From positions 1 to 32,945 of the forward strand of contig CAIVSQ010000046.1 of assembly GCA_903908605.1 (NCBI GenBank): DNA of 32,945 bases, written 5' to 3'. Source of the DNA: an uncultured Anaerolineae bacterium. Its GTDB lineage: Bacteria; Chloroflexota; Anaerolineae; Anaerolineales; Villigracilaceae. Positions 1,900-21,047 of the stretch are shown in pieces. The position numbers and the translations under genes are program-made. A model generated the notes under the pieces. The model made no database searches, had not been told where the DNA came from, and saw nothing but the letters and a program-made list of their open reading frames with translations. Each line of letters starts with the position of its first letter. Positions within the stretch are counted from its first letter, which is position 1.

Positions 1900-3090
1900 T
1901 CATGCCACAGCAGGATCGGGTACTTGTATCTGCAAGACCACAAAAAAGTTCAGCACGGCAATGACAACCCCCAATAAGAAGACATACTGGAAGCCAAACG
2001 CATTCCAGATTACGCCACCCAGCAGAGCAACCAATATCGAAAAGATATGATCGATCGTCACACCGGCGCTGAGAGCCGCCTGAATATCTTCAGGTTGCAG
2101 TGCGATTTTTTTGATGTACATGGAGCGGGCCATGCTGACTGAAAACAACATCTGGTCAAACAGGTAAAACACGCATACCGCAATGAAGGCGATACCGGCA
2201 GGAAAAACAAACTTGGAGAAACCGTATCCCAGGCAGACGAACACCAGCAGGACCGCTTCTGAGGCCAGCACGAAACGCTCGCCCAGCTTATCGATCATAC
2301 GCCCCAGGAAAGGCTGGAAGATGATCCCGATCACACCCCCAATGGTCATCAGAGTGGCAATGGTTTGGGTGGGCTGGTTGAAAATGGTGACAATCACCCA
2401 CGGTGCAAAAGTGATGAACAGCTGTTTGCGCGAACCTGACAGGACGTTCAACAGGTAGAAAAGATTGTATTCCTTGCGAAGCTTGAGAAATTCGCGTGGG
2501 CGGGTGGTATCTTCCGGTTTCATGCTGTACATTAAAACAGCCGCGATCCCCAAACCAATGGCCGACATGACAAAGGAATGCTGAAAAGTAAACCCCAGAT
2601 ACTTGAAGCCCACAAAAACCAGGAAGCTTCCACCAATGGCGGCCATATTGCGAATGGCATTCAACTGGCCAAGACGCTGACCCGTTTTACCGGGTTCAGC
2701 TAGCTCCATGCCGATTGTGGATGCGATCGGCATGAACAAATGCTGGCCCTGGCTGTATATAAACAGGAAGAAGACCATCAGCGCGTAGGTAGGAGCAAAG
2801 AATCCGATCAGCAATACCCCCACAAAGCTGAGCACCAGCGAAAGCGCACCCAGGCGCCGGCTGCACAAGAACCATAGCAACGCTGTCACAAAGACCACCA
2901 GGAAACCAGGCAACTCCCGTGGAAATTCGATAAAAGAACGTTGAAAACCGCTCAGGGCATACCGTTCGTTTAAAAAGTTATTAAAGGTTGAATCAAATAT
3001 GCTGTAGGCTATGCCCATGGAGAGGGATGCAAATGCGAATAATTTCAATTCACGCGGGGCAGTGCCCAGGCGATTTAACCAGGTTGTCAT
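1900..3090 (-). CDS. MFS transporter, 12 TM
   Basis: This 396-residue, very hydrophobic protein shows about twelve membrane segments in two halves, with a charged central loop (MKPEDTTRPREFLKLRKEY, about 190-208) as in the major facilitator superfamily. A motif-A-like stretch, GRMIDKLGERF, lies after the first helices of the second half. The substrate cannot be read from the sequence. The start has a purine-rich AAGGGAAAG just upstream. It stands alone, ending at the shared terminator at 1862-1894, and is preceded on the same strand by the DUF4404 gene and its hairpin. Confidence 0.85.
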   Translation of the reverse strand: MTTWLNRLGTAPRELKLFAFASLSMGIAYSIFDSTFNNFLNERYALSGFQRSFIEFPRELPGFLVVFVTALLWFLCSRRLGALSLVLSFVGVLLIGFFAPTYALMVFFLFIYSQGQHLFMPIASTIGMELAEPGKTGQRLGQLNAIRNMAAIGGSFLVFVGFKYLGFTFQHSFVMSAIGLGIAAVLMYSMKPEDTTRPREFLKLRKEYNLFYLLNVLSGSRKQLFITFAPWVIVTIFNQPTQTIATLMTIGGVIGIIFQPFLGRMIDKLGERFVLASEAVLLVFVCLGYGFSKFVFPAGIAFIAVCVFYLFDQMLFSVSMARSMYIKKIALQPEDIQAALSAGVTIDHIFSILVALLGGVIWNAFGFQYVFLLGVVIAVLNFFVVLQIQVPDPAVA

Positions 3091-13501: not shown

Positions 13502-14185
13502 ATGGCTGAACAAGTAATTACTGCTGAAAACCTGGTTAAAACATACCAGATGGGCGATGTGGAGGTCAATGCGCTGCGCGGGTTGACCATGAGCATCGAC
13601 CGTGGAGAGGTGGTGGCCATTGTGGGGCCGTCTGGCTCCGGCAAGTCCACCTTAATGAATATCCTGGGATGCCTGGACCGCCCAACATCGGGTTCTTATA
13701 TGTTGGATGGCGAACTCGTATCTCACCTTAACGATGACCAACTGGCTGATATTCGCAACCGCAAAGTGGGTTTTATCTTCCAGAGCTTCAACCTGCTCTC
13801 ACGTGCCACAGCGCTGTCCAATGTGGAACTTCCACTTCGCTATTCCGCAAGGAAAGAGGGTCGCAAAGAAAAAGCACGTCAAGCCCTGATCGCTGTGGGG
13901 CTGGAGAACCGTGTCAGCCATCGCCCATACGAACTTTCTGGCGGTCAACAACAACGCGTGGCCATTGCGCGGGCACTGGTTAATGACCCGGCCATCATCA
14001 TGGCCGATGAACCGACCGGCAACCTCGATTCAAAAGTCGGGCAGGAAATCATGGATTTACTGCTCAGCCTAAACCGACAGGTTGGCACCACCCTTATTAT
14101 TGTTACTCATGACCCCAAAGTCGCGGCACAGACCCAACGTGTAATCCGAATTCGCGATGGCATGGTCGATACGGAGACAGCATGA
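13502..14185 (+). CDS. ABC transporter ATP-binding protein (MacB/LolD type)
   Basis: This is a complete 227-residue nucleotide-binding domain. It has Walker [10 protein letters not shown] (42-50), the Q-loop glutamine in FQSFNLL (94), signature LSGGQQQR (145-152), Walker [13 protein letters not shown] (Glu170) and the switch histidine in VTHD (203). The length and motifs match the family that energises MacB, LolCDE and FtsX-type permeases. It works as a homodimer at the inner face of the membrane. Its stop codon overlaps the permease start by ATGA, and the adaptor gene is 14 bases upstream, so the three components are cotranscribed. Confidence 0.95.
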
Positions 14186-17536: not shown

Positions 17537-17566
17537 TCAGCTCCTTTTATTGGAAGGTAAAAACCT

Positions 17567-18175
17567 ATGGCAGATTTCAAACTGACAATTTATTCGGATT
17601 ATATATGACCCTGGTGCTATGTCGGCCAGGGTGTGGTCGCAAAGCTGGAAAATGAATACGATGTGGAAATTGATTGGAAACCTTTTTATTTACGCCCGGA
17701 TACTCCCCCGGAAGGAATGGATCTGCCCGACTATGTAAAACGTGCGCAGGCTTCAGGTGCTGACAAACGCCTGCAAGAAATGGCACAGCAAAATGGCCTG
17801 GATTTTGTCCCAACCAAACGTCTTCATAACACGCGGCTGGCTCATGAAGCCCATGCGTATGCAGCCGAAAACGGACAGGGCAAAGCCTTTCACCATGCTG
17901 TGTTTCAAAAAATCTACGGGCAAGGCCTGGATATCAGCGACTGGCAGGTATTGCGCCAGGCTGCCAGTGAGGCTGGGCTTGATCCGGACGATATGCAACG
18001 CACTGTGGATGGCGGTAAATACACACAGCTTGTCATGGAGGAGGTACAGCTTGCCAGCCAAATCGGCGTGACCGGCGTACCAACCTATGTGATCAATGAT
18101 CGTTATGCTGTGGTTGGCGCACAACCCTATGAAGTATTCAAAAACGCATTAAAGAAAATTTTACCTGGGCCATAG
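17567..18175 (+). CDS. Selenocysteine-containing DsbA/FrnE-family oxidoreductase (in-frame TGA at 17606-17608)
   Basis: Read through one TGA, this is a 202-residue DsbA-superfamily protein of the FrnE/2-hydroxychromene-2-carboxylate isomerase group. It starts M-A-D-F-K-L-T-I-Y-S-D-Y-I, then TGA (codon 14), then PWCYVGQG. Relatives have CPWC at this place, so TGA replaces the nucleophilic Cys, giving UPWC. The rest is normal: FYLRPDTPPEG, a helical insert, and the cis-Pro motif GVTGVPTYVINDRYAV (Pro172). GGAAGG precedes the ATG, and the only in-frame stop is this TGA. A hairpin fitting a bacterial SECIS lies 7-37 bases downstream. The GTG at 17633, which an ORF finder picks, would remove the active site. 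A sequencing error or nonsense mutation (TGC to TGA) is the main alternative. The protein has no signal peptide, so it is probably a cytoplasmic thiol/selenol oxidoreductase. Confidence 0.8.
17616..17645 (+). promoter_or_regulatory. Candidate bacterial SECIS element
   Basis: Upper stem CGGCC (17623-17627) pairs with GGUCG (17635-17639, one G-U), closing a 7-nt loop AGGGUGU. A lower stem GCU (17616-17618) pairs with AGC (17643-17645) across an internal loop. The apical loop begins 19 bases after the UGA and has a G in its first two positions, both as expected for SelB-binding elements. It lies wholly within the coding sequence, as in other bacteria. Confidence 0.6.
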
Positions 18176-20363: not shown

Positions 20364-21047
20364 ATGAAAACGCCCATCATTGCCCCCTCCATTCTCTCGG
20401 CTGATTTTACCCGGCTGGGTGAAGACTTGGCCACCTGTGAAAAAGCCGGCGCAAATTGGATCCATGTGGATGTCATGGATGGTCACTTTGTGCCCAACAT
20501 GACCCTCGGCCCACTGGTGGTGGAAGCCTGTAAGCGCGCCACCAACCTGCCACTGGATGTACACCTGATGATCGAGAAGCCTGAAAGCATGCTGGAAGCC
20601 TTTGCCAGGGCAGGTGCCGATCGGCTGACGGTCCACGTGGAAACCTGCCCCCATTTGCATCGTACCATCCAACAAATTCAATCCTTGGGGGTCAAAGCTG
20701 GTGTCACCCTCAATCCAGCCACACCTGCTATCATGTTACAGGAAATTTATACACTGGTTGACCTGGTGCTTGTCATGACCGTCAACCCAGGCTTTGGCGG
20801 CCAAAATTTTATCCCCGAAATGCTTCAAAAAGTGGCTCAAATTCGCAAATCGCTGGATGAAAACGGGTCACAGGCCTGGCTCGAAGTGGATGGCGGCGTT
20901 TCAGAGAAAACACTCCCCTCTCTACTCAAAGCCGGCGCGGATGCGTTCGTGGCAGGCAATGCAGTCTTCAAACACCCTGGTGGAATCACCGCAGGGATTG
21001 CCGCCCTGCACAACTTGACATTGCCTGCTTATCGTCCGGAAAATTGA
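20364..21047 (+). CDS. rpe: Ribulose-phosphate 3-epimerase
   Basis: This 227-residue TIM-barrel enzyme interconverts ribulose 5-phosphate and xylulose 5-phosphate in the pentose phosphate pathway. Family motifs are intact: APSILSADF, IHVDVMDGHFVPN (metal ligands His34 and Asp36), DVHLMI (His67), MTVNPGFGGQ and EVDGGV (Asp176). Its length is typical. The ATG abuts the kinase stop (TAGATG), so the two are translationally coupled. The kinase-rpe-rpmB order is also seen in Bacillus subtilis. Confidence 0.96.
   Translation: MKTPIIAPSILSADFTRLGEDLATCEKAGANWIHVDVMDGHFVPNMTLGPLVVEACKRATNLPLDVHLMIEKPESMLEAFARAGADRLTVHVETCPHLHRTIQQIQSLGVKAGVTLNPATPAIMLQEIYTLVDLVLVMTVNPGFGGQNFIPEMLQKVAQIRKSLDENGSQAWLEVDGGVSEKTLPSLLKAGADAFVAGNAVFKHPGGITAGIAALHNLTLPAYRPEN

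Follow-up and report, generated by a model that had tools for sequence, protein, structure and literature searches.

A predicted FrnE-like selenoprotein of Anaerolineales, its SECIS element and its alternation of selenocysteine and cysteine

Does the single in-frame TGA of an oxidoreductase-like gene in an uncultured Anaerolineae bacterium terminate translation, or is it read as selenocysteine (Sec)? The gene lies in a 32,945-nucleotide stretch of contig CAIVSQ010000046.1 (assembly GCA_903908605.1; the whole stretch is hereafter called the window), and the reading that we prefer, with a probability of about 96%, is that it encodes a cytoplasmic FrnE-type oxidoreductase with an attacking Sec, the UGA being decoded via a SECIS element and the elongation factor SelB. 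The TGA, the Sec machinery, the SECIS hairpin, the Sec/Cys alternation and the fold were all observed by computation, and the coordinates of the features are collected in Table 1.

Table 1. Features of the predicted selenoprotein gene and their positions in the window.
Feature	Position	Strand	Remarks
Shine-Dalgarno-like GGAAGG	17552..17557	+	9 nt upstream of the ATG
FrnE/DsbA-like thiol-disulfide oxidoreductase gene, predicted selenoprotein	17567..18175	+	202 residues, U at residue 14
In-frame TGA, predicted Sec (U14 of UPWC)	17606..17608	+	55 distinct homologues have TGA here and 32 have Cys; no third residue occurs
Resolving cysteine C17, TGC codon (UPWC)	17615..17617	+	Invariant in 53 aligned proteins
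Predicted bacterial SECIS hairpin	17623..17639	+	Stem CGGCCA/UGGUCG, loop GGGUG at 17629-17633
GTG taken as start by mechanical ORF calling	17633..17635	+	Inside the SECIS hairpin; false start
P172 codon (GVPT), presumed cis-proline position of the thioredoxin fold	18080..18082	+	Invariant in the alignment

The original prediction, made from the letters of the window, had described a frame with one internal TGA and a ribosome-binding site ahead of its ATG, and both were confirmed: the start codon occupies 17567-17569, the terminal TAG 18173-18175, and the 202-residue frame contains exactly one internal TGA. It had also warned that a standard annotation would lose the active site, and the plain ORF list indeed holds only the frame from GTG 17633 to 18175 (180 residues), which lacks both U14 and C17; since this GTG falls within the SECIS hairpin, it is regarded as a false start. 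With Cys substituted for Sec, the full product matches the DSBA family (PF01323, E 5.8e-45) over residues 6-196. The TGA stands at the position of the family's first redox Cys (CPWC), as had been proposed. NCBIfam had no model above cut-off for the FrnE-like protein, and an Rfam scan of the window returned no match. Near the start of the window, at 61-1029, there is also a low-complexity ORF rich in Thr, Pro and Ser, with TLTPTVTRT-like repeats.

Homologues in Anaerolineales alternate between TGA and Cys codons at this position, as the original prediction had suggested checking. Over 87 distinct sequences, the codon at the Sec position is TGA in 55, TGC in 25 and TGT in 7, and nothing else occurs; in 53 aligned proteins D11, U/C14, P15, C17, A92, P172 and G184 are invariant, and P172 is the residue that we take, from knowledge of the fold, to be the cis-proline. 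Among the 121 nearest genomes, 22 of the same order, including the genome itself, match with E below 1e-50; in each of them the gene contains a single TGA, and every locus that was read has it at this same codon. Across the phylum Chloroflexota, TGA was found in 53 of 56 matching genomes (the query being a hand-made family composite that served for finding genomes only, with the TGA counts taken from the genomes), so that Sec is the usual form of this branch. The relatives named in GTDB are MAGs of Anaerolineales or Anaerolineae with 61-66% identity, and plasmids yielded only distant Cys-type relatives, at under 60% identity. A sequencing or assembly error, with base 17608 being in truth C or T and the residue Cys, might be entertained for a single draft MAG, but its probability is negligible, given that independent assemblies supply 55 distinct sequences with the same TGA, some of them in single-contig genomes (including G018, G064 and G069), and that the TGA is accompanied by a SECIS hairpin that is missing from the Cys genes.

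The hairpin is recognizable mainly by comparison. Its arms, 17623-17628 and 17634-17639, enclose a loop whose first G is nucleotide 21 past the UGA, and codons 5-10 after the UGA are nearly always GTC GGC CAG GGT GTG GTC in Sec genes; codon homozygosity over these six codons is 0.95, compared with 0.44 over 65 other conserved columns (28 genes), and the Cys genes use different codons for the same residues. All six stem pairs are formed in 45 of 50 Sec genes against 3.2 expected when synonymous codons are redrawn at the family's own codon usage, the 50 sequences being mutually related, so that these counts are not independent events, and the Sec paralogues L077, L078, L080 and L081 being excluded. 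When the 3′ arm is slid by 1-3 nucleotides, none of the 50 forms all pairs, and the apical loop starts with GG in 49. In Cys homologues the stem has decayed, with all pairs present in 1 of 32 and in none of the seven close Cys genes. Changes on both sides occur at three pairs (numbered in nucleotides after the UGA), namely 15-31 (CG, TA), 19-27 (CG, AT, TA) and 20-26 (AT, CG and TG, along with four AG breaks). These features of a covarying hairpin are those described for bacterial SECIS elements (PMC1088965), and on this comparative evidence we assign the hairpin at 17623-17639 to that class. Folded as a single sequence within a frame of 48 nt, the window hairpin shows no exceptional stability (z -0.78; the core alone gives z -2.65), and since its energy alone is unremarkable, the case rests on the comparison. 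The window's own mRNA also allows a competing hairpin at 17608-17632, between ACCCUGGU next to the UGA and GCCAGGGU from the stem and loop of the SECIS (CCCUGG with CCAGGG); it is favoured in a longer frame, and a similar structure is predicted for L015 and L071.

These data also bear on whether the TGA is a real stop, leaving a broken gene or a short peptide followed by a restart at GTG 17633. Other genes of the window do end at TGA in the usual way, and mechanical ORF calling begins at this GTG, both of which would fit such a reading; but dozens of lineages retain the TGA with the 13 residues upstream and the 188 downstream conserved as well, and a decayed gene would not be expected to hold on to one lone stop followed by frozen codons and a covarying hairpin. 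The restart, moreover, would lie inside the hairpin and yield a product devoid of both redox residues. A real stop is thus very unlikely and appears to be largely refuted by conservation.

All four genes of the Sec pathway whose presence the original prediction had made a check, selA, selB, selC and selD, were found in the genome, a MAG of 5.77 Mb in 612 contigs with 91.5% completeness and 6.4% estimated contamination. The tRNA-Sec scores 67 bits and has the anticodon TCA, and SelA, SelB and SelD match with E values of 1.6e-127, 2.1e-17 and 4.2e-103, respectively. SelD (L145, C299:9643-10575) has an in-frame TGA of its own and reads SCAGUASK across it, which indicates that SelD is itself a selenoprotein. 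The nearest matches of SelB are from three genomes of the same genus (66, 65 and 61% identity), with no other match above 58%; this speaks against contamination, and despite the 6.4% estimate SelB looks native to the genome. Among the 121 relatives, SelB is present in 99 and a tRNA-Sec above the cut-off in 107, the weakest of these matches (47-50 bits) being probably other long tRNAs. A SelB search of the TGA-carrying genome of L027 gave no match, probably because that MAG is incomplete. Decoding of the TGA as another residue (Cys or Trp), through a code change or a suppressor, would likewise produce Cys alternation at the position if TGA were read as Cys, but we consider it exceedingly improbable: other ORFs of the window end at TGA (e.g. 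1900-3090, 13502-14185 and 20364-21047), so that the genome is not simply recoded; tRNA-Sec, SelA, SelB and SelD are all present; and a general reassignment needs no SECIS element. Machinery, Cys/TGA alternation and a covarying SECIS all support the original proposal of a UPWC Sec enzyme.

What kind of enzyme this would be is indicated by its fold. An AlphaFold2 model, built on the 53-sequence alignment with Cys modelled at residue 14, has a pLDDT of 96.7 and a pTM of 0.91, and sets residue 14 immediately before helix 15-19. Its best five PDB matches are Deinococcus radiodurans FrnE (TM 0.84-0.88, 31-32% identity), followed by S. coelicolor SCO1869, and phmmer agrees on FrnE as the closest solved relative (E 2e-30). 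The Pfam and structure matches together identify a DsbA-like thioredoxin domain, in which U14-P-W-C17 forms a CXXC-type redox pair, in keeping with the FrnE subfamily of the DsbA family (PF01323, cd03024, COG2761). Judged from sequence, the N-terminus (MADFKLTIYSDYI) lacks a signal peptide. A Sec enzyme with another function, whether kappa-GST-like, similar to 2-hydroxychromene-2-carboxylate (HCCA) isomerase, or acting in the detoxification of organic or metal thiols, is unlikely; kappa GST and HCCA isomerase do have the same fold, but they rank lower (7-8) with 17-19% identity against 32% for FrnE, and every protein aligned here has the redox pair of UPWC/CPWC.

FrnE is a cytoplasmic disulfide reductase/isomerase of the DsbA family that has been linked to cadmium, diamide and oxidative stress, and its loss increases sensitivity to cadmium and diamide (PMC8945050). 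The D. radiodurans protein (DR_0659, PDB 5cnw/5coh) shares the fold over the whole length and the cytoplasmic type with the window protein at 32% identity, but has CPWC in place of UPWC and a C-terminal extension with a CXXXXC motif that aids regeneration of the active site (PMC8945050). The 202-residue window protein lacks this motif and has no Cys after C17, which would make an external reductant more likely for regeneration. The motif is not universal in FrnE, being absent from the proteins of D. maricopensis and S. roseofulvus (PMC8945050).

Genomic context offers little guidance on function. Neighbours in the window comprise a response regulator, a histidine kinase, a MacB-type ABC transporter, a histidine phosphatase, a protein kinase and a ribulose-phosphate epimerase; a search for a conserved operon partner found that these are not common to the relatives, whose own recurring neighbours resemble, as judged by eye, a large membrane protein and an exonuclease-like protein. 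As no neighbours are shared, the context gives no substrate, and proposals for substrate and reductant draw on FrnE.

From these comparisons we infer Sec insertion, catalytic direction, reductant, substrate and physiological role as follows. SelA would form Sec-tRNA(Sec) with selenophosphate supplied by SelD, and SelB, bound to the hairpin, would bring this tRNA to the ribosome at the UGA, where Sec would be inserted. In the resulting protein, U14-P-W-C17 would stand at the start of helix 1, within a thioredoxin fold into which a helical domain is inserted. Sec14 may then attack (or transfer) a disulfide, and C17 would resolve the mixed selenylsulfide, with the enzyme recycled most likely via thioredoxin/thioredoxin reductase or low-molecular thiols. 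A likely role would be fast disulfide reduction or isomerisation under oxidative or metal stress.

The distribution of the two forms points to repeated exchange between them. A tree built on 40 sequences from the close branch, beside which a wider quick tree was also made, shows Cys forms in five places; a single Cys clade is rejected (p-AU 2.4e-45), and the well supported branches force at least four Sec/Cys changes. Cys versions nested among Sec versions include L012, L016, L051 and L125. SelB is retained in the genomes of the Cys loci L012, L016 and L051, and no match was obtained in SelB searches of the genomes of the Cys loci L025, L026 and L028. Sequence numbers and the outgroup suggest a direction from Sec to Cys, with a root that is not secure owing to the long outgroup branch, and gain versus loss of Sec is to be read with the same caution. 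We lean slightly towards a history in which Sec, probably of long standing, is the norm for this FrnE branch in Chloroflexota, and the Cys forms of Anaerolineales are repeated later replacements, each with a decayed SECIS and, in some cases, SelB kept. If true, these replacements would constitute a natural series for measuring the loss of Sec and its benefit.

The family is already described as one of selenoproteins, to which the window gene adds a member. DsbA-like selenoproteins with a UxxC motif (PF01323, COG2761) were first described in 2005 from metagenomic sequences of the Sargasso Sea (PMC1088965), and by 2016 they comprised 45 proteins in 41 bacteria (PMC5029168); a DsbA-like form 1 with PF01323 was listed in 2026, and a DsbA-like selenoprotein has been found twice in Lokiarchaeia/Helarchaeales. 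Form 1, as described, has the same domain, a UxxC motif and a SECIS directly after the UGA, and nothing in the window gene differs from it in kind, the particulars here being the Chloroflexota branch, UPWC and a defined SECIS with a GGGUG loop. Sec-containing FrnE is also known from algae (PMC6627142) and from SelenoDB (PMC3965025). By its description, the algal protein likewise combines the FrnE family with Sec, but it is eukaryotic, and in eukaryotes SECIS elements are located in the 3′ UTR, unlike in the window gene, where the element lies just after the UGA. In the literature searched, of which coverage was incomplete, no report combined Chloroflexota, DsbA and selenocysteine. What is new is the member, its SECIS, the spread in Chloroflexota and the repeated Sec/Cys switches inside Anaerolineales. 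The finding opens no new kind of system; its value is that standard gene calling would truncate a redox enzyme common in Chloroflexota, the mechanical start removing the active site, and that it provides a clean set of close Sec/Cys orthologues with intact or decayed SECIS, several with the Sec machinery kept, which can serve to study why organisms retain Sec.

Two further DsbA-like forms with TGA were encountered. The paralogues set apart from the SECIS analysis make up a second, more distant Sec branch in the same order (YVUPWCFMAESGL), with a hairpin of its own (GAGUCC-GGUCU-GGACUC) in a shifted register, the loop lying at nucleotide 25 after the UGA. The third form, HDTVUPFCRIGKRHL (L084, in the same-family genome G054), is distant from the other two.
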